Source of the DNA: an uncultured Lewinella sp.
GTDB lineage: Bacteria > Bacteroidota > Bacteroidia > Chitinophagales > Saprospiraceae
NCBI GenBank assembly: GCA_913057785.1
Contig: CAJXPD010000006.1
Coordinates: 23,276 to 87,275, forward strand
DNA: 64,000 nucleotides
Direction of reading: 5' to 3'
The notes beneath the pieces are model-generated. The model was not told the DNA's origin, searched no databases, and saw only the letters and a program-made list of their open reading frames with translations. Of the stretch, positions 4,515-61,901 are shown one piece after another. A program made the position numbers and the translations under genes. The first letter of the stretch is position 1. The number at the start of each line of letters is the position of its first letter.

Positions 4515-4549
4515 GATTGTTAATTTTGAATTCGCCAAGGCTTCTTGTT

Positions 4550-18600: not shown

Positions 18601-18734
18601 CCATGGCCTTTGGATCTGCCTCTACCAGTCGCATCCCCATGGGAGTCGCCATCATTGGAGGGCTAATTTTCTCGCTCTTCCTTACATTGTACGTTATACC
18701 ATCTATCTACACCTATTTTAAGCGAAAATCATGA
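15690..18734 (+). CDS. efflux RND transporter permease subunit (HAE1/AcrB-like)
   Basis: IERPVLATVISIVIILFGAIGY; ATGLVVDDAIVMMENIYRR; LVGIVTKNGILIVEFANQ-type motif; 1014 aa. Confidence 0.97.
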   Translation: MSLSSTSIERPVLATVISIVIILFGAIGYTYLGVREYPVVDPPIVSVSTSYVGANAQVIESQITEPLEETVNGIAGIRSLSSISADGRSTITVEFEIGTDLEAAANDVRDKVSQAQRRLPPDADPPTVSKSDANAGTLMALTIQSENRDLLSLTELANNIFKERLQTVAGVSNIRIWGSKEYAMRIEMDPNKLSAYGLTPLDVRTALQQQNLELPTGKIEGNRTELTIRTFGRLTTPEEFSEMVVRERDGVIVQLKDVANVALRPRNLNTSLRGKGVIKMVGCAITPLPGSNLIDIADAVYVRVEQIKKDLPPDLKVGYAFDNTRSVRKAVNEVQDTIMIAFGLVVIVIFLFLRNWRTTLIPVITIPISLIGTFFVMYIFDFSINVLTLLGIVLATGLVVDDAIVMMENIYRRIEQGVEPIKAGFEGAKEIYFAIIATSITLVAVFLPIIFLQGLTGRLFREFGIVVSGAIVISTLVSLTLTPMLSARFLRKSRRQSALFRFTENILEGINHLYNASLKGFLKIRWLAWPLSAACIAAIYYIIQLLPTEIAPLEDKSSFRVFATAPEGTTFEVMDNYMTDLLDILDTIPEARAYISVTSPGFGSSTAANSGFVFFTVVEPDERERSQSEIVQSLYPKVRGLNYARAIITQRQTIEVGRRFRGLPVQYVIQAPDFDRLKEALPRFVEEAEKNPAFSVVDLDLKFNKPELHIEIDRERARSLGVTVRDIAETLQLFYSGQRFGYFIKNGKQYEVVGEASRQYRNDPGDLAGIYVRNRDGELIQLSNLVYFSEESNPPTLYRYNRYISATVSAGLADGYTIGDGIEAMDQVKREVLDESFSSALSGASKDFVESSGGLYFAFFLALILIYLALSAQFESFLDPLVIMFTVPLAITGALLALWMGGHTINIFSQIGVIVLIGIVTKNGILIVEFANQKMEAGLTARTAVLEAATLRLRPILMTSMATILGVLPIAMAFGSASTSRIPMGVAIIGGLIFSLFLTLYVIPSIYTYFKRKS

Positions 18735-20047
18735 AGTGGAGTCGATTAGGTTTACTTTTTCCAGCTGTTTTACTATGCTTTCCTGTCTTTGGACAGGACT
18801 TATTGACGCTGAAAGAGGCCATTGAAGTGGGCTTGGAAAACAACTATGGCATTAAGATTCGTAGAAATCAAGAAGCCATTGCCGCAAATAACAACAATAA
18901 GGGGAATGCAGGTATGCTACCGACCGTCAACACTAATGGAACGGTATCCTACACGAGTAATAATACAAGACAAAAGTTTTTCTCTGGGGATGAACGATCG
19001 GGAACAGGTGCAGGGAATACGAATCTCCGGCTAGGGGCATCCCTAAACTGGACAGCTTTCGATGGTTTCCAGATGTATGCACGTAAGGAAAGATTGGAGT
19101 TAGATCAAGTACAAAGCAAGGTGTTTACCAAGCAAGCCATGCAAGATCTAGTGTCTCAAATACAGACACTTTATTACGGGCTAGTACGGATTAATCAGCA
19201 GATCGATATCACTCAGCAATCCATTACTCTAAATGAAGATTTAAGAAACCTAGCATCTGGCAAGCTCCAGATTGGTACGGGGACGAACCTGGAAGTCCTT
19301 CAAACGCGAAACCGGGTAAATACGGATAGTTCTACCCTCTTAAACTTAGAGAATACCTTTCGGCAGAACCAGATCGCAATGAACCGACTCATGGGTAGGA
19401 CGGTAACTATCGAATTTACGGTCCCATTGGACATTCCAGAAACGCTCCTTCCACAGCTACAAGAACTTTCTGCCTTGGCCGTAGAGCAAAATTACGATAT
19501 GCGCTTGCTAAAACTGGATGAGCAAATCGCATTGACGCAAATTCGCGAAGCTCGATCCGCCCTCTACCCTACCGTTTCTGTGAACCTGGGTTACAATTAC
19601 AATTTCTCCCGTGCAGAAGTTGGTTTCCTACTTTCTAATCGCACCTTTGGCCCGACTGGTGGCCTCAGTTTCAACTACGACCTTTTCCCCGGAAGGAATA
19701 TCCGCAGAGACATCGACAATGCGACCATTTTGCAAGAAAACATCCAATTGACACAAGCCGATCTAAAGCAAAATATCGAAGCTTCCCTCTCCGAACAATA
19801 TCAAAACTATCAGGCCTTGGTCGGCTTAGAAGCTGTAGAACGCAAGAGTCTAGAAATCGCGGCACAAAACACCGCCCTCTCCCGGCAGCTTTACCGCTCC
19901 GGCCGCGCCACCAACTTCGATGTACGCGAAGCCATCCTCTCCGAAACACAAATTAAGGACCGCATTAGTGAAGTGATCTTCCGAAAGAAGTTGACGGAGA
20001 TTGAGATTAAAAGATTGGCGGGAATTCCGATGGAGGGGGTGGAGTAA
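18731..20047 (+). CDS. TolC family outer membrane efflux protein
   Basis: Signal peptide; LTLKEAIEVGLENNYGIKI and coiled-coil OEP repeats; overlaps RND permease by 4 bp. Confidence 0.94.
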   Translation: MKWSRLGLLFPAVLLCFPVFGQDLLTLKEAIEVGLENNYGIKIRRNQEAIAANNNNKGNAGMLPTVNTNGTVSYTSNNTRQKFFSGDERSGTGAGNTNLRLGASLNWTAFDGFQMYARKERLELDQVQSKVFTKQAMQDLVSQIQTLYYGLVRINQQIDITQQSITLNEDLRNLASGKLQIGTGTNLEVLQTRNRVNTDSSTLLNLENTFRQNQIAMNRLMGRTVTIEFTVPLDIPETLLPQLQELSALAVEQNYDMRLLKLDEQIALTQIREARSALYPTVSVNLGYNYNFSRAEVGFLLSNRTFGPTGGLSFNYDLFPGRNIRRDIDNATILQENIQLTQADLKQNIEASLSEQYQNYQALVGLEAVERKSLEIAAQNTALSRQLYRSGRATNFDVREAILSETQIKDRISEVIFRKKLTEIEIKRLAGIPMEGVE

Positions 20048-35571: not shown

Positions 35572-36465
35572 ATGAATATCTCAATCCAAGATCTAAATAA
35601 GGTTTACCCGAATGGGAATCATGCACTGAAAGATGTCAATATCGAGATCAATGAAGGCATGTTTGGACTCTTAGGGCCCAATGGGGCTGGCAAGTCAAGT
35701 CTAATGAGGATTTTGGTGACCCTGATGAAGCCCAGTAGTGGAAGGGTCTTGGTCAATGGAAAAGACACAGCCAAGCATCGAGATTATGTGCGCAGTATGT
35801 TGGGGTATCTCCCACAAGACTTTAGCTTCTTCTCTAATTTGAAGACCTACGAGTTTCTTGACTATGCTGCTCGATTATCGGGCATGAGTAGTGGTAAAAA
35901 GCGAAGGGCTGCGGTGGATAAGATGTTGGAGGAAGTAGCGCTCTTCGATGTGCGGAATCGGAAGGCAGGAAAACTATCCGGTGGGATGAAAAGAAGGCTC
36001 GGAATTGCCCAGGCCTTGATCAATGATCCCAAGATTGTGATCGTTGATGAGCCCACTACGGGATTGGACCCTGAAGAACGGATTCGTTTCAGAAACTTGT
36101 TGGCACGCATTAGTTCACAGGATGTAATCATCATTCTCTCTACACATATTGTTGCAGACATTTCGAGCACTTGCGAACACATGGCTCTATTAAACCGGGG
36201 GCAGGTAGCCTTTACTGGATCTCCCGAAGAAATCATCCGACAAGCTGAAGGTCATGTTTGGTCGCTATATGTGGACGAGAAAGAATACGTAGAAGTCAAC
36301 CAGAAATACCAGGTCATTGCTACTGTCATGCAAAAAGATGGTTGGAAAGTGACGGTAGTGGGTGATGAGGTGCTCGGCTACGATGCCGAACCCGTAAGCC
36401 CAAACCTGGAACATGCCTATGTATATTTTGTGGAACATACACTCAAGAATCGAATTTTAGTATAA
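35572..36465 (+). CDS. ABC transporter ATP-binding protein
   Basis: GLLGPNGAGKSSLMRI Walker A; KLSGGMKRRLGIAQAL signature; VIVDEPTTGLDPEER Walker B. Confidence 0.97.
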   Translation: MNISIQDLNKVYPNGNHALKDVNIEINEGMFGLLGPNGAGKSSLMRILVTLMKPSSGRVLVNGKDTAKHRDYVRSMLGYLPQDFSFFSNLKTYEFLDYAARLSGMSSGKKRRAAVDKMLEEVALFDVRNRKAGKLSGGMKRRLGIAQALINDPKIVIVDEPTTGLDPEERIRFRNLLARISSQDVIIILSTHIVADISSTCEHMALLNRGQVAFTGSPEEIIRQAEGHVWSLYVDEKEYVEVNQKYQVIATVMQKDGWKVTVVGDEVLGYDAEPVSPNLEHAYVYFVEHTLKNRILV

Positions 36466-36827: not shown

Positions 36828-39800
36828 ATGGCATCTCCGATTAGGACAGTAGCCAAGTATGAGCGAAAAATCTTGATGAGAAGTTGGTTCTTCCGAATCT
36901 TCTCCGTGTTCTCTCTCTTTGTGCTCTTCGTATTCAACATGGGAGAGATCTCCGAAGTGGGAGATACTGAATGGGGTTATCGAGCGGTACCCTCTACCAT
37001 GCCTTATGCCTATATTTACCTACTAAATATGGCGCAGGCCATTATTGCAATCTTTTTATCCTCAGAGTTTATCAAGCGAGACCGGAAGCAAGATACCACG
37101 GAGGTCATCTACGTGCGATCTATGAGTAACGGCTCTTATTTGCTCGGTAAAACTTGGAGTATTCTCTCTATTTTCCTAATCATCAATGTAGCGGCCCTGG
37201 GCCTAGGGCTGATCTTCAACCTGCTGGGTCAAAATACATACGTGGACTGGCAGGCATATCTTTACTATCCGCTCCTTATTTCATTACCGAGTATACTTTT
37301 CTTGATCGGCTTATCTGCTCTACTAATGTGCATCATGAGAAACCAAGCCTTAACTTTTGTGCTGTTAATTGGCTTGGTACTGTCGAGCATGATTTACCTA
37401 AAGACCTCCTACCATTACCTATTTGACTGTATGGCATTTTATCAGCCGTTGTTCCATTCTGATATCATCGGATTCGGACATTGGGACGATATTCTCCGGC
37501 TGAGAGGAATGTACGCCAGTTTCGGTGTTGGCTTCATTTTCACTTCGATCTTACTGATAAAGCGACTCCCCCAATCCAGGCTAATGAATGGTGTCTCTCT
37601 CATCGTTGGCTTGGCAGGAATCGGCCTAGGTACCTGGCTAGGTTACCAGCATATACAGGAATATAATGCCAATACTCAACTCCCCAAGGACATCATAGCC
37701 TTGAATAATTCCTATCTGGATCAAGCTAGAATAGACATTGCGCGGCATACTATTGAGTTAGAGCAAAAGGAAGACGGTGTTGTAGCCACATCAAAAATCC
37801 AGGGCCAAGCTGTCCAATCGGCCAATGAGTACGTTTTTACCTTAAACCCAGGTCTCGCCGTCAGCGCTGTACAGGACGGACAAGGAGCACTTTCCTTCGA
37901 AAGAAAGATTAACCTTCTCCTAATCCAACCAAGAACTCCTTTGGAGGCTGGTCAAGAGATCAATTGGACCATCACCTATGAGGGTAATATTAATGAAGAA
38001 GCTTGCTTTCTAGATGTTTCCAGCGATTTGAAATATGAACGCTATCAAGAAATGGTCTGTAATCTGGATCAACGGTATGCGTTTACTGAACCAAACTTCC
38101 TCTTGCTTACTCCAGAAGCACAATGGTATCCAACAGCTGGCGTCGGATACAGTGATGCTTCCCCACTTTGGTATAGAAAGGATTTTATCGATTACCAACT
38201 AACCGTCAAAACACTTCCGGGGCTAACCCCAGTTTCCACTGGAACCACGGTAGAACAAGGCCCAGATACCTATACATTCGATCGTCCCTACAAGATTGCC
38301 CACCTGGCACTATCCATTGGTAATTACAGAACGGCATCATTGGAAACGGATAGTCTAACTTTCCAAGTCTACTATATTGACGAACATGATTACTTCAAAA
38401 ATGCCTTCCCAGACATCCGCGACACCCTAGTTTCGGTGATTCGGGAGCGCCTAGGGGACTTTGAACGAAAATCAGACCTTAAATATCCTTTCTCCACCTT
38501 TTCACTGGTGGAAGTCCCAGCCCAATTCAAGTCCTTCGATCGAACCTGGACCTCCATTCATGAAACGACGCAGCCAGGACTCGTCTTTATCCCGGAGCGG
38601 GGCATGCACACCCGCAATTACGATTTTGAGGGTATGGTAAAGCGGCGAAAACGCTGGAGTCGAAACAGGGACCGCACCGATGAGGAACTGCAAATGATGG
38701 GGCTGAATAGCTTCTTGCAAACCTTTTTCGAGTTCAAAGATGTCAATACATCCTTCAATAATCAAAGGTTCACTGTTGATGAAAGGATTAATCCCTACTA
38801 TCAGTTCGTGCAGCTCTATGAAATGTGCAATAATCTTGAATCCGACGAATGGCCGGTACTGAATCGCATTTTCGAATCCTATCTACGCAGTGAAGGCAGT
38901 GAGCAACCGGAATGGTTGAGGCGAAATACAGGTAGCACGCAGTATGAGTTAGCCAACATGGTGCTCCAGGAGAAATCCTTCGCGGAAATCTTGACCCTAA
39001 AGGAAAATCAGAGCTTAATCGATAATGTGATCGAACTCAAGGGAGATCTGTTGTTTTCTATGATCCAAGCGCAAGCAGATACGGATCGTTTTCGGGAATT
39101 CATCACAGGTATGCTGGCAGAAAGGCGTTTTGAAAACCTCAGTTTTGAGGACTTCAATAGCATTTTGCAGGAAGAATTCGACATCGATCTTTCTTCCGTC
39201 ATGGCCAAGTGGTTCCACGAAATAGAGCTACCCCGCTACCTTATCTCCACTCCAGTCGCAGAAAAGGTGCTAGCAGATGACCGAGAACTCACCCGTATCC
39301 GGATGAGCATCTCCAATCAGGGTACGGCCGAGGGAGTAGTAAAGATCACACTTAGACCAGGGGAAGAAGTACAACGCCTCGTTTACCTTGACCCCAATCA
39401 AACGAAGGAGCTATACTACCTGACGGCAACCGAGCCCACCGGCTTGGAAATCAATACCCTGGCATCAGGCAACCTGCCCAACCAGATCGAATACAACTTT
39501 GATCAAATCGATGAAACCGGTATCAAGAATGCCAGAGAAACCCAACGCACAGTAGACAAAGCCATCGTGCTGGTTAATGAAGGTGAAATTATTGTGGATA
39601 ATGAAAGCGCCGACTTTGACTATTCCATTTTTGAGGAAGTAAGTCGTCTCCGAAAATGGTTAAAGCCCGAAAGTCAGGAAGAATTCAAATACCAAGGTAC
39701 CAGAGTATGGAGACCTCCTTTTAACTGGACGGCAACTACGGATGATAAGTTCTTTGGAGAATTTGTGCGTTCGGCCTTGTACATCAAAGCGGGTGACGGA

Positions 39801-40103
39801 TCAAAAGCCGCTACCTGGAGAATTCCCATTCCTGAATCGGGGCGATACGAGGTATTCTATCATGTATTTAAAGATGATTCCTTCCGTTGGAATCGTAACC
39901 AGAGGGGTAACTACCGCTTCACCATACCACATGAAAATGGCACGGATGAGCCGACAGTGGAACTACATCGGGATACACCAGAAGGTTGGACTTCCCTGGG
40001 AGATTACAGCTTTACTGCCGATACCCTGACCGTTTCTCTGAGCAATGAGACGCGCTTGCGGGCAGTCTTCGCCGATGCGGTTAAGCTGGTTCGAATGGAT
40101 TAG
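36828..40103 (+). CDS. ABC-2-type permease fused to M1-peptidase-like extracytoplasmic region and golvesin/xanthan-lyase-like C-terminal domain
   Basis: N-terminal ABC-2 TM helices (~250 aa), long M1-like middle without a visible HExxH, C-terminal GSKAATWRIPIPESGRYEVFYHVF...VFADAVKLVRMD. Confidence 0.85.
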   Translation: MASPIRTVAKYERKILMRSWFFRIFSVFSLFVLFVFNMGEISEVGDTEWGYRAVPSTMPYAYIYLLNMAQAIIAIFLSSEFIKRDRKQDTTEVIYVRSMSNGSYLLGKTWSILSIFLIINVAALGLGLIFNLLGQNTYVDWQAYLYYPLLISLPSILFLIGLSALLMCIMRNQALTFVLLIGLVLSSMIYLKTSYHYLFDCMAFYQPLFHSDIIGFGHWDDILRLRGMYASFGVGFIFTSILLIKRLPQSRLMNGVSLIVGLAGIGLGTWLGYQHIQEYNANTQLPKDIIALNNSYLDQARIDIARHTIELEQKEDGVVATSKIQGQAVQSANEYVFTLNPGLAVSAVQDGQGALSFERKINLLLIQPRTPLEAGQEINWTITYEGNINEEACFLDVSSDLKYERYQEMVCNLDQRYAFTEPNFLLLTPEAQWYPTAGVGYSDASPLWYRKDFIDYQLTVKTLPGLTPVSTGTTVEQGPDTYTFDRPYKIAHLALSIGNYRTASLETDSLTFQVYYIDEHDYFKNAFPDIRDTLVSVIRERLGDFERKSDLKYPFSTFSLVEVPAQFKSFDRTWTSIHETTQPGLVFIPERGMHTRNYDFEGMVKRRKRWSRNRDRTDEELQMMGLNSFLQTFFEFKDVNTSFNNQRFTVDERINPYYQFVQLYEMCNNLESDEWPVLNRIFESYLRSEGSEQPEWLRRNTGSTQYELANMVLQEKSFAEILTLKENQSLIDNVIELKGDLLFSMIQAQADTDRFREFITGMLAERRFENLSFEDFNSILQEEFDIDLSSVMAKWFHEIELPRYLISTPVAEKVLADDRELTRIRMSISNQGTAEGVVKITLRPGEEVQRLVYLDPNQTKELYYLTATEPTGLEINTLASGNLPNQIEYNFDQIDETGIKNARETQRTVDKAIVLVNEGEIIVDNESADFDYSIFEEVSRLRKWLKPESQEEFKYQGTRVWRPPFNWTATTDDKFFGEFVRSALYIKAGDGSKAATWRIPIPESGRYEVFYHVFKDDSFRWNRNQRGNYRFTIPHENGTDEPTVELHRDTPEGWTSLGDYSFTADTLTVSLSNETRLRAVFADAVKLVRMD

Positions 40104-41738: not shown

Positions 41739-42794
41739 GTGAAAAAACAACTTTCTCTCAGCGTCCTAGTCCTGCTAACACTATGGGCTTGTAATCAACC
41801 GGAAGAAGAAAGTCCTTCCATCGACCTAGCAGCACCTGTTTCCGTCATTGACGTGGCGACCTCTTCCCTCTCAAGGCATACCATCGCCACCGGTAATGCC
41901 ATGGCTGAAAAAGAGATGGAAGTCACTTCGCAGATTGCAGGCAAATATAAGATCAAGAATCACCCCTCCTACAATCGTCCATTCAAGCTGGGTGATCGGG
42001 TCAAGGCAGGTCAAGCTTTTGTAGAGATCGAGGACAAGGAATACGTCAACGGAATCAGCTTGGAGTCCAAAAAGATGAACTTGGACCTGGCTAAGCAGGA
42101 ATACGAAAAGCAAAAATCCGTCTATGACAAAGGTGGGGTTACCTTAAGGGAATTACGGAATTCTGAACTGCAAATGACCAATGCCCAGAATGAACTCGAG
42201 AACGCAGAGATCCGCCTCGAAAAAATGAAAATAGACATTCCCATCTCTGGCGTGATCGTTACCCTACCCCACTACACGCCCAATAGCCAAATTCAACAGG
42301 GAAGTTCCTTGGCTACCATCATGAACTATTCTAGAATGTATGTCGACGTGAGTTTACCTGAAAACACGATGACTGAGATCAAAACGGGGCAAAAAGTGCA
42401 GATTACGAACTACAGTCTCCCCAATGATACCTTGATTGGAACCGTAACGGAGATCTCACCAGCCATCGATGTCAACACGCGTACCTACCTCGGCAAAGTT
42501 CGTTTCTCGAATCCGAAACTCTTGATTCGGCCAGGTATGTTCATCAAGACGCTCATCAAAGTCAACCAGCGGGACGACATCATCGTGATTCCAAAAGAAG
42601 TCATCATTTCTGATCAAAGGGGTAAACGTGTTTTTATAGTAAAGGAAAACACCGCCTTTGAGCGAATCATAGAAACTGGTATTGAAAACGAAGACATGAT
42701 AGAGGTTGTCTCTGGGCTGGAAGTCAACGAACGCTTAGTGACCAAAGGTTTTGAAACCCTTCGTGATAAGTCCAAAGTGAAAGTACTGAAATGA
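41739..42794 (+). CDS. efflux RND transporter periplasmic adaptor subunit
   Basis: Lipobox LLTLWACNQ; adaptor hairpin and lipoyl-like segments (GDRVKAGQAFVEIEDKEYVN); overlaps next gene by 4 bp. Confidence 0.93.
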   Translation: MKKQLSLSVLVLLTLWACNQPEEESPSIDLAAPVSVIDVATSSLSRHTIATGNAMAEKEMEVTSQIAGKYKIKNHPSYNRPFKLGDRVKAGQAFVEIEDKEYVNGISLESKKMNLDLAKQEYEKQKSVYDKGGVTLRELRNSELQMTNAQNELENAEIRLEKMKIDIPISGVIVTLPHYTPNSQIQQGSSLATIMNYSRMYVDVSLPENTMTEIKTGQKVQITNYSLPNDTLIGTVTEISPAIDVNTRTYLGKVRFSNPKLLIRPGMFIKTLIKVNQRDDIIVIPKEVIISDQRGKRVFIVKENTAFERIIETGIENEDMIEVVSGLEVNERLVTKGFETLRDKSKVKVLK

Positions 42795-45700
42795 AAAAAT
42801 TGACCCAATTTGCCGTTAACTATCCCGTAACTGTACTTATGGCGATCCTCGCCATTGGGATATTAGGCTATATATCTTATTTCCGTTTAGGAGTAGATCT
42901 CTTCCCTGATCTCAACTCTCCCCGCCTATTCGTGGAGATCGAGTCAGGAGAGAAGGCACCCGAGGAAATTGAAAAGCAGTTTGTTGAGCAGATCGAAGCC
43001 TTGAGTATGCGCCAGGGTGGCGTAACACAAGTGGCTAGTGTAACAAAAATCGGTTCTGCTCAAATTACCGTGGAATACAGCTGGGAGAAAGACATGGATG
43101 AGGCCTTCTTGGATTTGCAGAAAGCCTTGAATGACTTCAATCAGGGAGGTGAGCTGGATCGAATCACGGTGACCCAATATGATCCTAATAGTGCACCCAT
43201 CATGCTCCTTGGCGTATCACACAATAGTATCGATGACCTCAACGAATTGCGGAAGGTCTGTGATAACTATGTGAGTAAGGAACTCGTGCGCTTAGAGGGA
43301 GTGGCACAGGTATCCCTATCCGGTGACCAAGAACAGGAAGTGATCATCAATACCGCTCCTTATAAACTGGAAGCCTATGGTTTGAGCCTGGACAACATCA
43401 GTCAGAAGATCCAGAGCTTTAACCAGAACGTTTCTGGCGGGACCGTCCAGGAGTTGGGCCTGCAGTATACCGTAAAGGGGGTGGGGATGTTGAAAACGGA
43501 GGATGATTTCGACAATCTGATTGTTGGGTACAAAGAAGAAAAAGCTGCTGCCAACTCAGCTAATGCCCAATCCCAGGAATCAACTCAGCAGGCCAATGCA
43601 CCCGCTAGAAATCGTGCTCCGATCTATCTGAAAGATGTAGCGGTAACCACCTTTACGAATAAAGATCCGGAGAATATAGTACGGATCAATGGCCAGCGCT
43701 GCATTGGTTTATCTATCTACAAAGAAAACCGGTTCAATACAGTAAAGGCAGTCGAGGAGATTAGTGAAGCCCTGGAAGATATCCGACAGGCCTTGCCTGG
43801 CTATGAATTTGAAGTCATCTCTAATCAAGGCGTATTCATTCAAAATGCTGTAGATGAAGTACAGGAAACAGCCTTAGTTGGAGTCTTGCTGGCAGTAGTA
43901 GTACTTTTTCTTTTCTTACATCGCTTTGGTACTACGCTCATTATCAGTATCGCAATACCTATTTCCATCATTGCCACCTTTACCCTCATGTATTTCAATG
44001 GTCTTACCATTAATATTATGACCTTGGGGGGCTTGGCCTTAGGTGCAGGAATGCTGGTAGATAATGCGATTGTGGTATTAGAAAATATATTCCGGAATCA
44101 CGAATCGGGTGCCGATGCCAAGACGGCCGCCATCAACGGTACTGCCGAAGTGGGCGGAGCGATTACGGCTTCCACCCTAACTACCATTATCGTTTTCTTA
44201 CCGGTTATTTACTTGCAAGATGCAGCGGGAGAACTCTTCAAGGACCAAGCTTGGACCGTAGCCTTTTCCCTACTATCCTCCTTGTTCGTGGCTATTTTCG
44301 TGATCCCCATGTTGTATCATCGCTTCTATCGCAAGCGCACAGCGCCAGCTCAGGCTCGTTCTCTGCAATTGCGTTCCTATGGTCGCTTTCTATTGGGCGT
44401 TTTGCGTTTTCGTTGGATCGTAATCCTGTTAGCTGCTTTATTGATCGGAGGTGCCTATTACATCTACCCCTCCATCGGTACGGAATTCATGCCCGCGGCT
44501 TCCAGCAAGAAATTCAGCATCGATGTGCGCCTGCCTGAAGGAACGGTCTTAGAACGTACTTCCACCACTACCGAAAATGTGGAAAGTATCGTACAGGATG
44601 TGTTGAAGGATGATCTAAAGTTTGTCTACAGTCACATCGGACCAAAATCGGCTATCGAGGAAAGTCAGTCCGCCGTTTTTCAAGGAGAGCACACGGCTAC
44701 GGTAGAAGTAGCCTTGATAGATAGTACCAGATTAGGTACGCAGAAGGTAATGGCGGCACTGGATGAAGTTACCTCCGGCATTTCCGGGGTGGAACTATCC
44801 TTTTCTCCAGAGGTCTCTTCCCTAAACAGCATTTTGCGAACGGAGGAAGCCCCTTTGGTCGTAGAGATCAAGGGACAAGACCTGGAAACCATCGAAAGCA
44901 TCACCCAGGAGGTTCGCTCCCTCATGGCAGAGATGCCAGAATTGATCAATATCCAGACGTCCATTGAGCAAGGTGCGCCAGAGGTGGAGGTTTTGTTCGA
45001 CCGCTTCAAGCTGGGCTTGTACAATTTGGATATGAACAATGTGATCACCCAGATCCAAGATCAATTAAAAGGAAAGAGTGCCGGCAAACTCGAGCAAGCT
45101 GGCGAAATGATTGATATCCAGCTGAAGACGCCAGAACAAGGCATCGCTACCTTCGAGAACATGTTGATCCAGGGCGGGGACAAGATCTATCGCTTGCACG
45201 AGATCGCTAGTCTAAAGCAGTCAGCGGCTCCGAGAGAAATCCATCGAAGAAATCAAAGCCGCCTAGGTAAAGTATATGCCCAGACGGACGAAAGTATTCC
45301 TTTAGAGTTTGTTGCCAATAAGATTCGTGATGCTGTTCAAACAATTGAGCTTCCTGCTAACTATAGTATTAAAGTGGCTGGAGATGAGGCGCGTCGCCAA
45401 GAATCGCTGCAAAGTCTGACCTTCTCCTTGATCTTATCCGTGACCTTGGTCTACATGGTGATGGCCTCGCAGTTTGAATCGCTACTTCATCCCTTTACGA
45501 TTCTACTCACGATTCCACTAGCCGTGGTAGGTACTATCGCTACCTTTTATTGGCTCAATGCGCCTTTGAATATCATGGCCATAATTGGGATTATCATGCT
45601 GGTGGGTATAGCCGTAAATGACGCCATCATACTGGTGGATCGGATCAATCAATTGAAGCGGGGCGGCTTACCCCGCTTTGAAGCGATAGCTCAGGCAGGA

Positions 45701-45922
45701 CAGCAAAGGATCAGGCCCATTCTGATGACTTCAATGACCACAGTCTTGGCCTTGCTTCCCCTGACCTTTGGCTTCGGGGAAAGCGCCTCCCTACGTGCGC
45801 CCATGGCTTGGGCAGTAATTGGGGGATTGGTCACTTCTACCCTATTGACCTTAGTAGTGATCCCTTGCGTATATGCAGTCATTGACTTTGGTGGTAGAAA
45901 GAAAAGTGCTGAGGTAGTGTAG
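42791..45922 (+). CDS. efflux RND transporter permease subunit
   Basis: VNYPVTVLMAILAIGILGYISYFRLGVDLFPDLNSPRL; LGAGMLVDNAIVVLENIFR; VGIAVNDAIILVDRINQLKRGG. Confidence 0.97.
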   Translation: MKKLTQFAVNYPVTVLMAILAIGILGYISYFRLGVDLFPDLNSPRLFVEIESGEKAPEEIEKQFVEQIEALSMRQGGVTQVASVTKIGSAQITVEYSWEKDMDEAFLDLQKALNDFNQGGELDRITVTQYDPNSAPIMLLGVSHNSIDDLNELRKVCDNYVSKELVRLEGVAQVSLSGDQEQEVIINTAPYKLEAYGLSLDNISQKIQSFNQNVSGGTVQELGLQYTVKGVGMLKTEDDFDNLIVGYKEEKAAANSANAQSQESTQQANAPARNRAPIYLKDVAVTTFTNKDPENIVRINGQRCIGLSIYKENRFNTVKAVEEISEALEDIRQALPGYEFEVISNQGVFIQNAVDEVQETALVGVLLAVVVLFLFLHRFGTTLIISIAIPISIIATFTLMYFNGLTINIMTLGGLALGAGMLVDNAIVVLENIFRNHESGADAKTAAINGTAEVGGAITASTLTTIIVFLPVIYLQDAAGELFKDQAWTVAFSLLSSLFVAIFVIPMLYHRFYRKRTAPAQARSLQLRSYGRFLLGVLRFRWIVILLAALLIGGAYYIYPSIGTEFMPAASSKKFSIDVRLPEGTVLERTSTTTENVESIVQDVLKDDLKFVYSHIGPKSAIEESQSAVFQGEHTATVEVALIDSTRLGTQKVMAALDEVTSGISGVELSFSPEVSSLNSILRTEEAPLVVEIKGQDLETIESITQEVRSLMAEMPELINIQTSIEQGAPEVEVLFDRFKLGLYNLDMNNVITQIQDQLKGKSAGKLEQAGEMIDIQLKTPEQGIATFENMLIQGGDKIYRLHEIASLKQSAAPREIHRRNQSRLGKVYAQTDESIPLEFVANKIRDAVQTIELPANYSIKVAGDEARRQESLQSLTFSLILSVTLVYMVMASQFESLLHPFTILLTIPLAVVGTIATFYWLNAPLNIMAIIGIIMLVGIAVNDAIILVDRINQLKRGGLPRFEAIAQAGQQRIRPILMTSMTTVLALLPLTFGFGESASLRAPMAWAVIGGLVTSTLLTLVVIPCVYAVIDFGGRKKSAEVV

Positions 45923-46015: not shown

Positions 46016-49000
46016 ATGATGACCCAACTTATACATCGAAAAGTGGCGATCTGTATGGTCTTTATAGGTTTGACCCTCTTAGGGTATCTCTCCTATAAAC
46101 AGCTACCGGTAGAATTACTACCCAATGCGGAGCTTCCTATGCTTTTTGTTCAAGTGGCCTCTCCTACCCAGGTGAGTCCACAATACCTGGAGCAGCAGGG
46201 AGTCCTACCCGTTGAAGGGGCCATAGGCACCATGGAAGGGGTGGAAAGAATAGAGACGCAGATCACAGGCAATCGAGCAACCATTCGGGTAAGCTTTGAA
46301 CAAAACACCCGTTTCAAATACGCCTTTCTCAAACTCCAACAGAAAATCGATGCCGTAAAACCCGATCTCCCCACCGATCTTTTTGTCCAAGTAGCTAAGA
46401 TCGACCTTCAGCAACTGACCAATCAGTTCTTAGAATTACAGGTGCGCGGTAGTGGAGGAACGGATAGATTGCGGAATGTCACAGAAAAAGACATTCGGCC
46501 GGCCTTTGAAAACCTTGATGGTATAGCCTCTATCAGCATCTTTGGTGGCCGACAAAAGAACCTAGAAATTCTACTAGACAAGCAAGCCGCTGAACCACAT
46601 AATATCACTCCGGAAAGCGTGCGTTCTAGACTGACGCAAAACTCCGGCAGCAGAACCCTAGCAGGATTCCTCTACGAAGGAGACAGACGCTTCTTTATAC
46701 GCACCGCCTCTGAATATGCGGAGGTTACAGAGATTGAAAACATCGTAATGGCACCCGGGCCCATCTTACTCAAGGATGTGGCGAAAGTCTCCTTTGGGGT
46801 AGACGAGGAGGAATCAATGAGTAGGGTAAACGGGAAAGATGCCATTTCTCTTACGGCTACTAAAGAATCGCAGGTCAATATTATTGATCTCTCTCGCCGC
46901 TGTCTTACCCTAATAGATCAGCTCAATGAGCAGCTTGCACCGAAGGACGTCCAGATCACCGTCCAGCGGAACCTGGCCCAGAATATGGAGAACAATATCA
47001 ATCAAATCATTGATTTGGCGTTGATTGGGGGCTTGTTGGCGATCTTTGTATTATGGATTTTCCTGAAGGATCTCCGACTTATTTCGGTAATTGCGGTTTC
47101 TATCCCCATCTCTGTTTTTGCAGCTTTCAACCTCTTCTATGGAGCAGGCATTAGTGTAAATAGCTTGACCCTCGTCGGAATGGCACTAGCCATAGGTATG
47201 CTACTCGATAATAGTATCGTAGTATTGGAAAACATCTACCGGCTGGTGGCAGAGGGGGCTATCATGGAAAAGGCAGTATCAAAGGGGGTAACGGGCGTGG
47301 CTAAAGCCATACTGGCTGCTACCTTAACTACGGCTACCGTATTCGTACCCTTCTTGTTTTTTGGAAACTACCTGATCGCACTGATCGGGAAAAATATAGG
47401 GGTTTCTATCATTTCAACCCTCACCGTTTCTCTTTTAGTAGCCTTGCTGTTGATACCGGTACTAGCTGCCTTTGTCTTGGGTTTTTATCGAAAGAAAAAA
47501 TCCAAAGCCTTCGCCGCTTCAAAAGCAAAAACACGTACGGAACGCTTATATCTAGTGCTGTTGAAAAGTAGTCTGCGCCATCCAGCAAGAACCATCATTG
47601 CTGGTTTGGTCCTATTCTTTCTGACCACTTTTGCGGTCCTAGCCATGAATATCAATGCCCAGGAAGAGGTTGAGTCTGAGCAGATTGATGTCTTTGTCAC
47701 CATGGCTAAAGGTAGCACGCTAGACAATACCGATAAGATTGTCCGTGAGATAGAGACCAAAGTGGATGGGATCAAAGAGAAAGAAGATGTCAGTAGTCGA
47801 ATTCGCGAAGAAGATGCAGTAGTAAGTATAAAATTAAAGGAGAACTTCGAAGACATTGACAAGCGCAATTACTTTGAAGTGAAAGCCAATGTGGATCGCT
47901 TGATCCGTGAAATTGGTGGTAACGCACGTATCAGCTTGACCGAGCAGAGTCGCGGAGGTGGCGGCGGCGGTGGTGGAATTGGTGGCATGGATGCCCTGGG
48001 TTCACTGCTAGGTTTTGGTGATAATCAGGAAAAATTGGTTATTAAAGGCGAGGACTATGCGGTACTGCAAAGAGTTTCTCAAGATCTACTCTATTATTTG
48101 CAGAGTCTGGATGACACGGAAGATGCAAGTCTAAGTTCAAGAGGTAATCGCCCAGAAGTGCTTTTGCGCTTCGATCCCCTGACACTTGCCCGGAAAGACA
48201 TCACGCCCGAAAACATCATGCTATCCCTCCGGGATTTTGGGCAGGATGCACCAACGAATTCTACCTTCCAATATGCGGACGAAGAATACAATATAATTAT
48301 TCGAGAAAAGGAGGTTCAGAACTATGAAGAACCTGAGCCCAAAAGCATGGATGACTTGCGACGTCTAGAGGTAGCGGACCAATCTGGCGGGATGCATGAG
48401 ATGGCCACCTTTACCAGTATCCAAACTGGCCAAGGGATGGACGATATCCAACGGATTAATCAGCAAAAGCAGATTGAGATCACCTACCGTCGATCTCAAC
48501 AGGCCATGCAATCGAAAGAAATCCTGGAAGCGCATAAAGAAAGTATTAACCAGTTGGTAGCCAATTATCCGGCTCCTCCTGGCATTGCGATAGAGATCGT
48601 AGAAGCGCAAGATCAACTGAAGGACTTCAAAGTATTAGCGGGGGCCGCTATTCTCTTGATCTTTATGATTCTTGCTTCTGTTTTCGAATCGCTCTCAGCA
48701 CCTTTTGTGCTAATGTTCTCCGTGCCCTTAGCAGCCACGGGAGCATTGCTGGGACTCGCTATCACGGGCAACAGCCTCTTCAACGCCAACACCTTAACGG
48801 GCTTCCTAATCCTTCTCGGCGTAATCGTGAACAATGGCATCATCATGATCGATTATGTCAATTCACTGAGGCGGCAAGGATATCGGAAGACGCGAGCCCT
48901 GATGACCGCGGGCTTGCACCGCTTACGCCCCATTTTGATCACCGCTATCACTACAATTGCAGCCATGTTCCCTCTAGCCTTGGGAACAGCAGAATATGTT

Positions 49001-50719
49001 AGCTTAATTGGGGCACCCTTCGCCATCACCGTTATTGGAGGTTTGGCACTCGGAACGCTCTTGACACTGGTATTGATCCCCACCGTTTATTTGGGCTTAG
49101 AAAATGCCATCAGTTGGTTTAGAGAATTGCCTTGGTGGGTCCGATTGATCAATCTAGCACTTTGGCTAGGCGTAGGCTTGTATATATACTTCAAGCTTAG
49201 CTCACTCCTTTGGCAATTAGTAGATTGGTTGCTGCTCTTCTTCTTGGTTCCGGCCGTAACTTACTTCATTCAGGTGAGTCTGAAGCGAGCCAGAGCAGAT
49301 GTGATACCAGAGGATCAAGCCCTAGAAATTGAAGTTCAGAATTTGGTCAAAATATACAACCGCCCCGGCCGTTTGACCCGGGAATGGTCCGGTAGCAAAG
49401 CCTTAGCAGATTTTCACCAATCTGGGCTTAGAGGTATCAAATGGGGTTTACTACTGCGGGAGTTCCTTTGGCAACTTCCCCTCTTGGGTTTCATGGTCTG
49501 GTTTACCTACTCTTTCTTGCGTTCAGGATTTTGGATGACGCTTTTAGCAGTGGGCATATACCTATTGATCCTAGAGATCTGGTTCCCAATTGGAACTGCC
49601 CTGACTAAAGGAGAACCTAAACGTTGGAAGAAGTTGATAAAGGCCTTCGGCTGGTTACTATTCTGGTTAAGTCCAATTGTGCTGGTCCTGCAATTGAACG
49701 AGAGATGGGAACAATGGGGCTTTTCGGTATTCGTTGGCGTTGTGTGGTATTTGATATTGATCATCTATAATTCTTCCAACTATATCCATCGCAATAGTAT
49801 TAACATTGAACGAATCAAAGGGAGGCTCCGTCGCTTCTACTATAGAATGATCATCAATATTCCCGTCATTGGAAAGCGGAAGTTACCCTTCAAAGCCCTG
49901 AACGGGGTGTCATTGAAAATCGGTACGGGTATGTACGGTTTATTGGGACCGAACGGGGCGGGTAAATCTACTTTAATGCGAATCATCAGTGGGGTATTTG
50001 AGCAGAGTTACGGGAAGATTTGGATTAATGGCGTGGATACCCAATTGAAGCGGGAGGAATTGCAAGGCTTAATTGGCTACCTACCGCAGGCCTTTGGTAG
50101 TTATGAACACATGTCTGCTTGGAGCTACTTAGATTACCAAGCCATTCTGAAGGGCTTAACCGATAATAAGGAGCGTAAGGAGCGCCTGGAATATGTGCTG
50201 TCTTCGGTGAATATGCTGGATCGAAAGGATGAAAAAATTGGTTCTTTCTCCGGAGGGATGAAGCAGCGGATTGGAATTGCTCAAATTCTATTGCATCTGC
50301 CTCGCATATTGATCGTTGATGAGCCTACCGCTGGGCTGGATCCCAGAGAACGAATCCGCTTCCGGAATCTATTGGTGCAATTAAGTCGGGAACGAATCGT
50401 CCTATTTTCTACCCACATCATTGAAGACATCGCTAGTTCTTGTAACCAATTGGCGGTAATCAATAAGGGATCTGTCCGTTATAAAGGGTCTCCCCAAGAT
50501 ATGCTGCAGCATGCAGAAGGTTTAGTTTGGGAATATGTAATTCCTGCTAGTGAGTTCGAACAAGCCGAAAGCGAGCAAGTAATTGTGAATCACATGCGAG
50601 AGGGAGATAATATTAGAGTACGCTGTATCTCCTCCACCCAACCCACCGAGGCTGCAGTGGAAACCGAGCCTGTTTTGGAAGATGCCTATTTGTGTCTCTT
50701 GAAAAACATTCAGAAATAA
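46016..50719 (+). CDS. RND-family permease fused in frame to additional TM helices and a C-terminal ABC ATPase domain (1567 aa)
   Basis: RND: IHRKVAICMVFIGLTLLGYLSYKQLPVELLPN, IGMLLDNSIVVLENIYR, GVIVNNGIIMIDYVNSLRRQGY; ABC: GLLGPNGAGKSTLMRI, SFSGGMKQRIGIAQ, LIVDEPTAGLDPRER, all in one open frame. Confidence 0.95.
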   Translation: MMTQLIHRKVAICMVFIGLTLLGYLSYKQLPVELLPNAELPMLFVQVASPTQVSPQYLEQQGVLPVEGAIGTMEGVERIETQITGNRATIRVSFEQNTRFKYAFLKLQQKIDAVKPDLPTDLFVQVAKIDLQQLTNQFLELQVRGSGGTDRLRNVTEKDIRPAFENLDGIASISIFGGRQKNLEILLDKQAAEPHNITPESVRSRLTQNSGSRTLAGFLYEGDRRFFIRTASEYAEVTEIENIVMAPGPILLKDVAKVSFGVDEEESMSRVNGKDAISLTATKESQVNIIDLSRRCLTLIDQLNEQLAPKDVQITVQRNLAQNMENNINQIIDLALIGGLLAIFVLWIFLKDLRLISVIAVSIPISVFAAFNLFYGAGISVNSLTLVGMALAIGMLLDNSIVVLENIYRLVAEGAIMEKAVSKGVTGVAKAILAATLTTATVFVPFLFFGNYLIALIGKNIGVSIISTLTVSLLVALLLIPVLAAFVLGFYRKKKSKAFAASKAKTRTERLYLVLLKSSLRHPARTIIAGLVLFFLTTFAVLAMNINAQEEVESEQIDVFVTMAKGSTLDNTDKIVREIETKVDGIKEKEDVSSRIREEDAVVSIKLKENFEDIDKRNYFEVKANVDRLIREIGGNARISLTEQSRGGGGGGGGIGGMDALGSLLGFGDNQEKLVIKGEDYAVLQRVSQDLLYYLQSLDDTEDASLSSRGNRPEVLLRFDPLTLARKDITPENIMLSLRDFGQDAPTNSTFQYADEEYNIIIREKEVQNYEEPEPKSMDDLRRLEVADQSGGMHEMATFTSIQTGQGMDDIQRINQQKQIEITYRRSQQAMQSKEILEAHKESINQLVANYPAPPGIAIEIVEAQDQLKDFKVLAGAAILLIFMILASVFESLSAPFVLMFSVPLAATGALLGLAITGNSLFNANTLTGFLILLGVIVNNGIIMIDYVNSLRRQGYRKTRALMTAGLHRLRPILITAITTIAAMFPLALGTAEYVSLIGAPFAITVIGGLALGTLLTLVLIPTVYLGLENAISWFRELPWWVRLINLALWLGVGLYIYFKLSSLLWQLVDWLLLFFLVPAVTYFIQVSLKRARADVIPEDQALEIEVQNLVKIYNRPGRLTREWSGSKALADFHQSGLRGIKWGLLLREFLWQLPLLGFMVWFTYSFLRSGFWMTLLAVGIYLLILEIWFPIGTALTKGEPKRWKKLIKAFGWLLFWLSPIVLVLQLNERWEQWGFSVFVGVVWYLILIIYNSSNYIHRNSINIERIKGRLRRFYYRMIINIPVIGKRKLPFKALNGVSLKIGTGMYGLLGPNGAGKSTLMRIISGVFEQSYGKIWINGVDTQLKREELQGLIGYLPQAFGSYEHMSAWSYLDYQAILKGLTDNKERKERLEYVLSSVNMLDRKDEKIGSFSGGMKQRIGIAQILLHLPRILIVDEPTAGLDPRERIRFRNLLVQLSRERIVLFSTHIIEDIASSCNQLAVINKGSVRYKGSPQDMLQHAEGLVWEYVIPASEFEQAESEQVIVNHMREGDNIRVRCISSTQPTEAAVETEPVLEDAYLCLLKNIQK

Positions 50720-51420
50720 TGGGGAACGCACTTTTATTATTAAGCAAACTAGTTCGCTACAACTTGAAGATCATCTTTGCAGGTCGGTTCATCTGGTTCC
50801 TCCTGGCCGCCTTAGGATTCTATATATTCTTTATGGTGATCAGTGTCTTGGATAATGATGAGATCAATATTGGCTCTATCTACTCCTTGACCTTTTTTCC
50901 CGCCATTTTGCTAATCTTTTATCCGATGGTCTTTGGCATACAGCGCGATGATGATGCTCGCATGCTTGAGATTTTGTTTGGAATCCCAGATTATCGATAC
51001 AAAGTTTGGCTGGTGCGCCTCGTTTTGATCTTTGTCCAGATCTTTATCCTGTTAATCCTATTTGCATCGATCGGTTCCTATCTGTTGTACCCCGTCAATC
51101 CACTGGTCATAGCCTCTCAGCTGCTATTCCCCATTTGTTTTCTGGGTAGCTTAGCTTTCTTATTTGCCACACGTATCAAGAATGGAAATGCTACGGCAGT
51201 GATCATGATCCTACTGGGAATAGGCTTAAGTATTTTTAGTGAAATCCTAGAGGATACCTTTTGGAACATCTTCCTCAATCCGTTTGACCCTGAGCGTGGC
51301 TTCAGCGAACTCGCCTGGCAGCAAATTGTTTGGAAAAACCGGGTATTCCTCTGCGTGGGGAGCATCGTTTTCATTTTGACGGCCCTGATCAATTTGCAGA
51401 AGCGGGAGCGATATATATAA
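50719..51420 (+). CDS. ABC-2-type transporter permease
   Basis: Six hydrophobic helices; ATG overlaps preceding stop (TAATG); YSLTFFPAILLIFYPMVFGIQRDDDARMLEILFGIPDYRYKVWLVRL. Confidence 0.85.
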   Translation: MGNALLLLSKLVRYNLKIIFAGRFIWFLLAALGFYIFFMVISVLDNDEINIGSIYSLTFFPAILLIFYPMVFGIQRDDDARMLEILFGIPDYRYKVWLVRLVLIFVQIFILLILFASIGSYLLYPVNPLVIASQLLFPICFLGSLAFLFATRIKNGNATAVIMILLGIGLSIFSEILEDTFWNIFLNPFDPERGFSELAWQQIVWKNRVFLCVGSIVFILTALINLQKRERYI

Positions 51421-57755: not shown

Positions 57756-60700
57756 TTGGTTGAATTGATCCGTAGTATTCGCCATTGTCGTTGTGTTCTA
57801 GCCCTAGTTACTTGCCTTGCTTTAGCTGATATCAGTCAGCTTCATGGTCAACCTTTGTCCACCTATCAGCACTTTACTCAAAAACAAGGTCTTTCCAGCA
57901 ACTATGTTCTTTCCTTCATTGAAGATCACTTGGGGTTCATTTGGATTGGAACGGAGAATGGACTAAACCGATTCGACGGCACCCATTTCTTAGAATACCG
58001 TCATGATCCAGAGGATATTAGCTCCTTAAGTAGCAACTGGATTACCGCGATTTTTGAAGATAGTCGAAGAAACATTTGGGTCGGTACGCGAAATGGTTTG
58101 AACCGACTTGATCGACGTAGTGGAATATTTGAAAGAGTAGACTTGCGGAAAGCGGATGGATCGCTAGTTAAGGATGAGATCACCAGCTGTTTGGAAGACC
58201 AGGATGGCAATGTCTGGGTTTTAACACTAAGGAACGGCCTGTTTAGGGTACCGATGGGGAAAAATAGTTTACCCTATATTGGTGAGCACTTCGCCTACAA
58301 GAACTTCACATCAGCATCGGCAAATAGCTTAAGACTCTCTCATCTCATTCAAGTTCAGGAAGATTATCTATGGATAGCTACCACACAAGGTCTTGATCGG
58401 CTCCAGCTCTCTACTGGAGAAATCCTGAGCCGGCAGATTCCCAATTTTACGGGTTTCTTTCAAGGTGAAGTTGATTTTATCAAGAGTTTAGTCAATTCTT
58501 CAGGTAATATCATTCTTCAGCTAGGAGGACAACTTTACCGAATAGAAGATCAAGAAACCAATCCAAGTATAGTTCTAATTCCACGGGTTGGCTCCAATTC
58601 CTCTATGGATCGACTTTTGCGGCATATGATTTGGCAGGATGAGCAGACCTTGTTAGCTACGGATTTGGCACAGATTTATTCCATTGATCTCAGCAGTGGA
58701 GAACAGCGCCTTTTCTTTCCAGCCGAAACGCAGGCTAATTTATTTCGCAACCGAATCCTGCCCTTACTAGAAGATTCAAAAGGGAATCTTTGGGTCGGTA
58801 CCTCTGGAGGAGGGATTCACTTCTTGTCAGGTGAAAAACCGGTTTACAATTTCTATCAGCATGAATCTGATAACCCCAATTCACTCTCTGCTGGATCTGT
58901 CCGGAGTTTCACAGAAGACCGGCAAGGTCATCTCTGGATTGGTATTTTGGGTGGTGGGATTGAGCAATTTCAATATGCTCCTGAAGGCTCAAGAATCAAT
59001 AAATTAAAAACTATAAATACGGGTAATCAAGGCTTAAGCAGTGACCAAGTAATTAAGGTGATGCTCGATCAAGGAGAAGATGCGCTTTGGGTGGCCACCA
59101 ATGACAATGGCCTCAATCGAGTAGATCTTGTTTCGGGAAAAACCAAAGTATATCGCCATATAGAGAATGACCCTAATTCACTAGGCGGCAACCGTATCTG
59201 GGGCTTGAATCAAGATAAAGAGGGCTTCATCTGGGTAGGCACCTGGGCAGAAGGTTTGGCGCGCCTCAACCCTAAGGATGGTAGCATCAAGGACTTTTTT
59301 GCTACCCCAAATGGCCTCAGTAGTAACAGCATACGCTTTATTTATAGAGCTCCAGATGAGTCCTTTTGGATTGGAACTACCCGCGGACTTAATCGATTAG
59401 ATACGCAAACCGAAACCTTCGTCCCCTTCATTCATGACCCTGCTGATTCTTCAAGTCTTTCCAACAATCTCGTTTGGTCCGTTTTCAAAGATCGCCAAGG
59501 AGACCTTTGGGTGGGTACTGATGTAGGACTTAATCGACTTGATCCGGTAACCAACAGTTTTGAGCACTTTTATGAGGATGATGGTCTGCCCTCCAATACA
59601 ATTTTCGGTTTGGCCGAGGATCCTGAAGGGGTGCTGTGGGTAAGTACAGACAAAGGGGTAGCTAGAGTTATCCGGGGACTGGGGGAGATTTCCTTTCAGA
59701 AAATCAATGTTCAAGACGAATTGGGTAGCGTTTCTTTCATACCGAAGGCCCTATACCAAAGTCCTAATTCCGGGCAAATGCTCCTCGGAAATGCTAGTAG
59801 GATGGTCATGGTGGATCCGGACCTCATTGGACAAGACACCTTTAGTCATAATTTAACGATCCATTCTCTTTCTACTTTTCGCCTTGGGAATGGAAAAGGA
59901 AAAAAGGACGTAGATTACTTTATAGCCGATAAATCGGAAGAGATTCAACTGGGATATCAAGACCAATCCATTAGTTTGCAGCTTTGTGATCTGGCTTGGC
60001 ACGGCACACAGGAACGGCAATATGAATACCAATTGTTCGGATTTAACGGCCAGTGGATGAGCCTTCCGGAAAACATGGAGGTAACCTTTACAAATCTTGA
60101 TGCTGGTAAATATCAGTTTCTGGTTAGAACTAAAAGTGCTGGCAATATCGCCTCGGAGGCAGTTCAATTGCTTTCTTTACGAGTATTTCCTCCTTGGTGG
60201 GAAAGTACCATTGCCTATTTGAGCTACCTATTGCTTCTGGCTGGTTTTGGCTACCTCGTCTATCGATTCCAACTGAATCGACAGCTACAGATTCAGGAGA
60301 CCGAAAACCTTAAAGCCCTAGATGCTTTCAAGAATAAACTTTACACTAATATCACCCATGAATTCAAGACGCCCTTGACCGTAATCAGCGGAGTGATAGA
60401 GCAGGTACAAGGGCACGATAAAGTAAAGAAGCTGGTAAAGAGAAGTAGTTCCAACCTTCTAAATCTGGTGAATCAAATATTGGATCTAAGAAAGTTAGAA
60501 GAAGGACGTTTAAAATTAAAGTGGATTCAGGCTGATATAATTGAGTATCTACAATATTTATTGGCTTCTTATGAAGCCCTTGCAGGTTTAAAGAATATTC
60601 AACTACATTTTGTCCCGGACGACGAGGAAATCCTGATAGATTTCGATAAAGAAAAATTGCAAAGAGTACTTTCTAATTTGCTTTCCAACGCGATCAAGTT

Positions 60701-61901
60701 CACTCCTCCGGACGGCCATATCTACATCAGAGCCTCTAAGCGAGAAGTCGCAGGAATGGACCACCCCACCCTATCCTTGATCATTCAGGACACCGGCATC
60801 GGCATTCCACAGGAGGATCAAGAAAGCATCTTTGATCGATTCTACCAAGTAGGTAATGATGCCCCGAAAGTTAACTCCGCCCTGCAATATCGCGGCCCAG
60901 GTGGAGGCACTGGCATCGGGTTAGCCATGACAAAAGAGTTGGTCGAATTCATGGGAGGTAGTATTTCCGTCAAGAGTCAGCTGGGCAAAGGGAGTTCCTT
61001 TACTATTGTACTCCCTCTCCATCAAAACGCAACACTCGTTCCAATCAAAGAACTCACCCAAACGCCTATTCTTGCGCCCGAGATTCCATCTGAAGGAGCG
61101 GAGCTTTCGGCCGGTCCTTATACGGGGATGGTGAGTGGCAGCTTACAAAGTCTTCTCTTAATTGAAGACAATACAGACGTCATGCAATATCTCGTATCCT
61201 TGCTAGAAGACAAGTATGATCTTTATCTTGCTCGTGATGGCCAAGAAGGAATCGACCTAGCATTGGAGCACATCCCGGATTTAATCGTGAGTGATGTGAT
61301 GATGCCCATCAAGGATGGCTTTGAAGTTTGTAGTACCTTGAAAATGGATGAACGAACAAGCCATATTCCTATCATACTTCTAACCGCCAAGTCTAGTATA
61401 GATTCTCGATTGGAAGGCTTAGGCCGAGGAGCGGATGCCTACCTAGCGAAGCCCTTTGACCAGCGAGAATTGTTCATTAGACTTGAGCGATTGGCCGCCC
61501 TACGGCAGCAACTGAGAGAGCGTTATCAAGGCTTCGAACCGGTGGAGCCCGCGGAAGAAAGGAACCCTTATGCACAGGAGGATGCATTTATCCATAGACT
61601 CCAAGACGTCATTGTTTCCAAGATGAAAGACGCAGAGTTTGGTATTAACACCCTTTGCCAGGAAATGGGAATGAGCAGATCCCAGCTCCATCTCAAACTC
61701 AAGGCATTAACGAATCGATCCACTTCCCATGTAATCCGTGCCGTTCGGCTGCACAAAGCCAAGGAATTACTGCAAGGAAATTCCATGAACGTTACCGAGG
61801 TGTCCTTCGAAGTAGGATTCAATGATCCTGCCTATTTTTCAAGAAAATTTACAGAGGAATTCGGGATTAGCCCGAAGAAATTCATGGGCAACCTCTCCTA
61901 G
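57756..61901 (+). CDS. hybrid two-component system sensor histidine kinase/response regulator (HTCS)
   Basis: Propeller repeats (LGFIWIGTENGLNRFDG...), ITHEFKTPLTVISG, GTGIGLAMTKELV, REC LIVSDVMMPIKDGFEV, AraC HTH; TTG start probable. Confidence 0.95.
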   Translation: MVELIRSIRHCRCVLALVTCLALADISQLHGQPLSTYQHFTQKQGLSSNYVLSFIEDHLGFIWIGTENGLNRFDGTHFLEYRHDPEDISSLSSNWITAIFEDSRRNIWVGTRNGLNRLDRRSGIFERVDLRKADGSLVKDEITSCLEDQDGNVWVLTLRNGLFRVPMGKNSLPYIGEHFAYKNFTSASANSLRLSHLIQVQEDYLWIATTQGLDRLQLSTGEILSRQIPNFTGFFQGEVDFIKSLVNSSGNIILQLGGQLYRIEDQETNPSIVLIPRVGSNSSMDRLLRHMIWQDEQTLLATDLAQIYSIDLSSGEQRLFFPAETQANLFRNRILPLLEDSKGNLWVGTSGGGIHFLSGEKPVYNFYQHESDNPNSLSAGSVRSFTEDRQGHLWIGILGGGIEQFQYAPEGSRINKLKTINTGNQGLSSDQVIKVMLDQGEDALWVATNDNGLNRVDLVSGKTKVYRHIENDPNSLGGNRIWGLNQDKEGFIWVGTWAEGLARLNPKDGSIKDFFATPNGLSSNSIRFIYRAPDESFWIGTTRGLNRLDTQTETFVPFIHDPADSSSLSNNLVWSVFKDRQGDLWVGTDVGLNRLDPVTNSFEHFYEDDGLPSNTIFGLAEDPEGVLWVSTDKGVARVIRGLGEISFQKINVQDELGSVSFIPKALYQSPNSGQMLLGNASRMVMVDPDLIGQDTFSHNLTIHSLSTFRLGNGKGKKDVDYFIADKSEEIQLGYQDQSISLQLCDLAWHGTQERQYEYQLFGFNGQWMSLPENMEVTFTNLDAGKYQFLVRTKSAGNIASEAVQLLSLRVFPPWWESTIAYLSYLLLLAGFGYLVYRFQLNRQLQIQETENLKALDAFKNKLYTNITHEFKTPLTVISGVIEQVQGHDKVKKLVKRSSSNLLNLVNQILDLRKLEEGRLKLKWIQADIIEYLQYLLASYEALAGLKNIQLHFVPDDEEILIDFDKEKLQRVLSNLLSNAIKFTPPDGHIYIRASKREVAGMDHPTLSLIIQDTGIGIPQEDQESIFDRFYQVGNDAPKVNSALQYRGPGGGTGIGLAMTKELVEFMGGSISVKSQLGKGSSFTIVLPLHQNATLVPIKELTQTPILAPEIPSEGAELSAGPYTGMVSGSLQSLLLIEDNTDVMQYLVSLLEDKYDLYLARDGQEGIDLALEHIPDLIVSDVMMPIKDGFEVCSTLKMDERTSHIPIILLTAKSSIDSRLEGLGRGADAYLAKPFDQRELFIRLERLAALRQQLRERYQGFEPVEPAEERNPYAQEDAFIHRLQDVIVSKMKDAEFGINTLCQEMGMSRSQLHLKLKALTNRSTSHVIRAVRLHKAKELLQGNSMNVTEVSFEVGFNDPAYFSRKFTEEFGISPKKFMGNLS

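Follow-up and report, generated by a model that had tools for sequence, protein, structure and literature searches.

RND and ABC pumps are regarded as separate classes of transporter with separate energy sources. The relay residues of the RND permease AcrB are D407, D408, K940, R971 and T978 (PMC8277102), and the MdtB2C1 heterotrimer demonstrates that RND trimers of unequal composition exist (PMC7015380). In the stretch of DNA analysed here (the window, 64,000 nucleotides from an uncultured Lewinella sp.), the two classes meet in a single protein, since the frame at 46016-50719 on the plus strand is one uninterrupted ORF of 1567 codons containing an RND permease (RND2) and an ABC ATPase. The start used by the orthologues is the second Met (46019). 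The parts of the protein are:

46016..50719, plus strand: RND2::ABC fusion protein of 1567 aa with 18 predicted TM helices; the start that agrees with the orthologues is 46019
46019..49093, plus strand: RND permease part, aa 2-1026, 12 TM helices
49136..49258, plus strand: two extra TM helices (TM13-14), aa 1041-1081, C-terminal to the RND domain, placed by family-averaged hydropathy
49328..49363, plus strand: strand 1 with the A-loop of the ABC ATPase domain, IEVQNLVKIYNR, aa 1105-1116, placed by position matrix (PSSM)
49364..49885, plus strand: four-TM insert and conserved basic linker within the ABC ATPase domain, aa 1117-1290
49886..50716, plus strand: remaining ABC-2-type ATPase, from strand 2 (Walker A and B, Q-loop, signature, H-loop and C-terminal LEDAYL motif)

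Pfam places ACR_tran at aa 2-1026 (whole-protein E 1.5e-158) and, further towards the C-terminus, ABC_tran over aa 1295-1439 (E 3.1e-28). The full-length ACR_tran domain with its 12 TM peaks identifies the first part as an RND permease. All of the RND and ABC motifs quoted in the original prediction are located in this frame: LLDNS in TM4 (aa 396-400), VNNG (aa 938-941), Walker A (from 1311), the signature (from 1411), Walker B (from 1432) and the H-loop (from 1465). What that prediction did not contain is the membrane insert that splits the ABC domain, the two extra TM helices before this domain, the overlap of the small permease gene (50719-51420) with the fusion, and the neighbouring gene for an M1-like protein; it did suggest the ATPase at 35572 as a partner. 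The other members of the seven-gene cluster in which the fusion lies are:

35572..36465, plus strand: ABC-2-type ATPase encoded on its own, sharing about 40% identity with the fused one
36828..40103, plus strand: ABC-2 membrane domain with an M1-peptidase-like domain lacking HExxH and a golvesin-C domain, 1091 aa
40149..41633, plus strand: TolC-type outer membrane channel (OEP)
41739..42794, plus strand: periplasmic adaptor (MFP/HlyD family)
42791..45922, plus strand: RND1, the partner RND permease, 1043 aa, its start overlapping the MFP stop (ATGA)
50719..51420, plus strand: small ABC-2-like permease, 233 aa, its start overlapping the fusion stop (TAATG)

The order ABC ATPase, ABC-2/M1-like/golvesin, OEP, MFP, RND1, RND2::ABC, small permease is identical in G673, a genome of another class, and in every family locus long enough to show it. 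The exception is G349, where other genes lie between RND1 and the fusion but the fusion and the small permease are still adjacent; in that genome (L074:5557-11817) three frames, of 657, 361 and 344 aa, separate RND1 from the fusion. In two samples, of 198 and 199 genomes, the genes for the ABC-2/M1-like protein and the small permease are confined to those that bear the fusion. The TAATG overlap at 50717-50721 gives the small permease a length of 233 aa, as in its orthologues, and this and the ATGA overlap suggest translational coupling. Promoter and terminator scans returned sites no more numerous than in shuffled sequences. PADLOC matches, considered as a sign of a defence system, proved to be generic ATPase matches, and no plasmid record matched the query over 80% of its length.

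The window contains another RND tripartite cluster, an ordinary one, at 14584-20047, with a likely adaptor (14584-15693), an RND permease (15690-18734) and an OEP (18731-20047). Elsewhere in the same genome, L002:286-4587 (G000:C105) encodes a 1433-aa fusion of an RND permease with a C-terminal OEP domain. The window also encodes a large hybrid two-component regulator with propeller, kinase, receiver and AraC-type domains (9122-13282), a second such regulator that looks like it by sequence (57756-61901), a predicted protein that matches a retroviral-type aspartyl protease domain (8154-9068) and, on the minus strand at 2811-7783, a SusC-like receptor (TonB plug and carboxypeptidase-regulatory domains) paired with a SusD-like protein.

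The ATPase domain of the fusion is split. By family-averaged hydropathy 12 of the protein's 18 TM helices belong to the RND part, a pair follows at aa 1041-1081 and the last four span aa 1145-1251. Between this pair and the last four, the segment IEVQNLVKIYNR (aa 1105-1116) resembles an ABC ATPase's strand 1 and A-loop. A PSSM made from 18 ABC ATPases, mostly of other genomes, has its best site at this segment in 17 of the 18 orthologues that have it, and 0-20 of 1000 shuffles score as well; in the divergent copy of G314 it misses the segment, and the G542 copy is truncated upstream of the site. From the A-loop segment to Walker A there are 202-209 residues in the orthologues (about 206 in the window), compared with about 30 in ordinary ATPases of this kind, and strand 1 with its A-loop does not directly precede strand 2. 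It follows that the four TM helices lie inside the ABC domain, immediately after the A-loop. The C-terminus of the RND part is cytoplasmic, and the addition of two and then four helices would therefore leave the two ATPase pieces on the cytoplasmic side, as judged from the helix count. An ABC ATPase that accommodates a four-helix membrane insert after its A-loop would be a structural surprise in itself.

The insert and the extra helices have no convincing Pfam match (DUF5326 appears in three members, best E 0.0004) and no PDB match. The linker is conserved, with 47 of 273 alignment columns invariant. AlphaFold models of the C-terminal part and of the small permease reached only pLDDT 37 and 49, from an alignment that contained just the close relatives L009 and L010, and were discarded. 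Walker A, the Q-loop, the signature, the catalytic Glu of Walker B and the H-loop are invariant in all full-length orthologues. The nearest proteins to the fused ATPase in the PDB are ABCA-type, and its nearest NCBIfam models are GldA and DrrA.

The small permease contains the stretch RDDDARMLEILFGIPDYRYKVWLVR, which we take to be ABC-2-like. In Pfam it has a weak match to ABC2_membrane_2, in one member only (E 0.00077), and by hhalign its similarity to ABC-2 is not significant. Homology with the insert was considered and was likewise not significant by hhalign, nor was homology with the membrane part of the ABC-2/M1-like protein, though the two are collinear over the ABC-2 loop. The M1-like protein (36828-40103) is exactly 1091 aa long in nearly all family orthologues. 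In eight of eight orthologues HExxH and GxMEN are missing at the aligned site (the G324 protein has one unaligned chance HETNH), so that the M1-like domain is probably no peptidase.

The most economical reading of these features would be an ABC-2 exporter tethered to an RND pump. In the working model, with the MFP and the OEP, RND1 and RND2 would assemble as a heteromeric RND trimer, and the gene order fits two different RND chains per trimer, as in MdtBC. The ABC-2-type ATPase at the C-terminus of RND2, for which its own six additional helices would serve as membrane anchor, would pair with the adjoining small permease as a tethered ABC exporter, probably joined by the stand-alone ATPase and the ABC-2/M1-like protein. 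The two ATPases and two ABC-2-like membrane proteins encoded would be enough for one heterodimeric ABC unit. Two RND2 chains per trimer, a speculative stoichiometry, would bring together two ATPase domains able to dimerise. ATP hydrolysis would raise the substrate, taken from the cytoplasm or from the inner leaflet, to the periplasmic leaflet next to the entrance of the RND pump. The M1-like domain (with no catalytic motif) and the golvesin domain would bind it or guide it, and the proton-motive force would let the RND part push it through the MFP and OEP.

What the sequences show directly is the fusion and how well it is conserved, along with catalytic motifs that are intact, an ATPase sequence that is split and a gene set that does not vary; from these we infer complex formation, the direction of transport, the hand-off of substrate and the coupling of energy. 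As a whole, the proposal of a single two-motor exporter that spans the envelope, in which an ABC-2 exporter is tied to one of the protomers of a heteromeric tripartite RND pump, is our tentative preference, with a little under an even chance. The stronger proposal, that one polypeptide couples ATP hydrolysis and the proton-motive force to a single export path, is possible but somewhat unlikely; the A-loop would be linked to the rest of the ATPase core only via the membrane, directly connecting nucleotide binding with the helices. The suggestions made with the original prediction, a ‘dual-energised pump’ or an ‘ABC exporter recruiting an RND trimer’, are consistent with the conservation of catalytic residues on both sides of the fusion.

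A different role for the ATPase would be regulatory. Transmission of mechanical force across the membrane is known for FtsEX or MacB, and the fused ABC module may itself move no substrate, its binding or hydrolysis of ATP gating or assembling the RND pump from the cytoplasm while the RND part does all of the transport. In favour of this, the ATPase is wired to the membrane on both sides of the A-loop, an unusual coupling of nucleotide state to TM helices, and the TM4 Asp is kept in both RND chains, RND1 and RND2. However, the overlapping small ABC-2-like permease is always present and a pure gate would not need one. This explanation is judged unlikely, if one to be taken seriously.

The distribution of the fusion bears on whether the two halves work together at all. 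A search with the linker and insert as query, in 348 genomes of 112 genera of the same family, Saprospiraceae, gave matches in 18 genomes and 11 genera; these genome sets are samples and the prevalence is approximate. There are 12 complete fusions within the family (1560-1570 aa), which with G673 makes 13 full-length proteins, down to 48% identity. The alternative raised with the original prediction, that orthologues are always two separate genes, is contradicted by these genomes: every junction-spanning orthologue is fused, there are no split cases, and all remaining family copies end at contig ends. This includes the two candidates for an unfused orthologue, G388 and G395, whose short RND2 frames stop at contig ends, as the partial fusions do.

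The two halves might nevertheless be independent transporters that share one chain, the tether ensuring equal amounts or a common place without energetic coupling. The motifs are intact in each half, and the RND-OEP protein of L002 shows that an RND permease has been fused to another efflux part in the same genome. But the lack of any unfused form among junction-spanning orthologues over class-level divergence, the strict co-occurrence of the genes and the conservation of the linker itself count against a mere tether, and independence is judged improbable.

A further alternative concerns the RND part, in that RND2 may serve chiefly as structural support, with little or no proton coupling. ATP would then drive the pump, and RND1 and RND2 would form a periplasmic conduit. 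In its favour, the positions of AcrB D408 and K940 are both Asn (N399 and N939), because of which proton coupling may be altered. Against it, D398 at the AcrB-family D407 position is invariant, as are the TM11 Arg and Thr (R969 and T976, at the positions of AcrB R971 and T978). Asn at the K940 position is also found in RND1 and is common in other RND proteins of the window genome, so that the missing Lys alone is no argument against proton coupling. A chiefly structural RND2 is judged very improbable.

The arrangement can be followed beyond the family. In a phylum sample of 346 genomes, G673, from another class, has a full 1576-aa fusion that is 48% identical over its length; 197 genomes from its class gave no other real match, and G992, of that same class, was rejected as a second case (weak match, E 1.3e-4, no fusion present). 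The corresponding identities of RpoB and GyrA are 59% and 57%, and the fusion identities, both within the family and to G673, scale with those of these two proteins, so the divergence between the two fusion lineages is about that between the classes. The presence of the fusion in two classes would be explained by descent with many losses or by an old transfer. With an RND2 profile, no other RND protein in 180 family genomes reaches E 1e-150, and RND2 therefore stands as a lineage of its own. In a small tree built from this genome's RND proteins it forms a fully supported group adjoining RND1, the join having 88/88 support. Every segment, the junction included, has a pN/pS of 0.015-0.123 against the nearest relatives, values that are rough because synonymous sites are near saturation. 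By these comparisons the RND::ABC arrangement is old and conserved.

The same junction is intact in the independently assembled relatives L009 and L010 (94-95% identity) and in G032/G045 (68-71% identity; contigs >300 kb, 100% complete, 0% contamination). Although the genome assembly that holds the window is fragmented, with 548 contigs, and has 7.93% contamination, the chance that an assembly or sequencing artefact fused two genes is negligible, and is ruled out by these comparative data, given the identical junction in many independent assemblies at 48-95% identity and under purifying selection. The open frame, the Pfam domains and the intact junction in relatives establish as real the single-ORF fusion of RND permease and ABC ATPase originally predicted.

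Searches of the open-access literature for such fusions or for this set of genes brought up no RND-ABC fusion, and the PDB contains no RND-ABC fusion chain, in agreement with the original statement that no characterised example is known. The domains are known ones in a conserved arrangement for which no precedent was found, and databases may well contain uncharacterised proteins built in this way. A conserved natural fusion provides a direct test of whether RND and ABC transport can be coupled, and of how an ATP-driven step at the inner membrane passes its substrate to an envelope-spanning pump.

Among described systems, MdtABC and MuxABC resemble this cluster in having one MFP and two different RND permeases per gene cluster. 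However, no ABC part is described for MdtB or MdtC, and the fusion scores far under the cut-offs of the MdtC and MdtB models (252.7 against 1774 bits and 245.5 against 1584 bits). The fused ATPase is like that of DrrA/GldA-type ABC-2 exporters, matching both models and having a C-terminal LEDAYL-type motif, but it lies under the model cut-offs, is fused to an RND permease and is interrupted by four TM helices. MacAB-TolC (PMC8277102) also combines ATP-driven tripartite export with an ATPase fused to a permease; in MacB, however, the ATPase is N-terminal to its own permease domain, which is not an RND permease, and there is no proton-driven part. The RND-OEP fusion of L002, in the same genome, likewise has an efflux component at the C-terminus of an RND permease, but there the added part is an outer-membrane channel domain and not a second motor.
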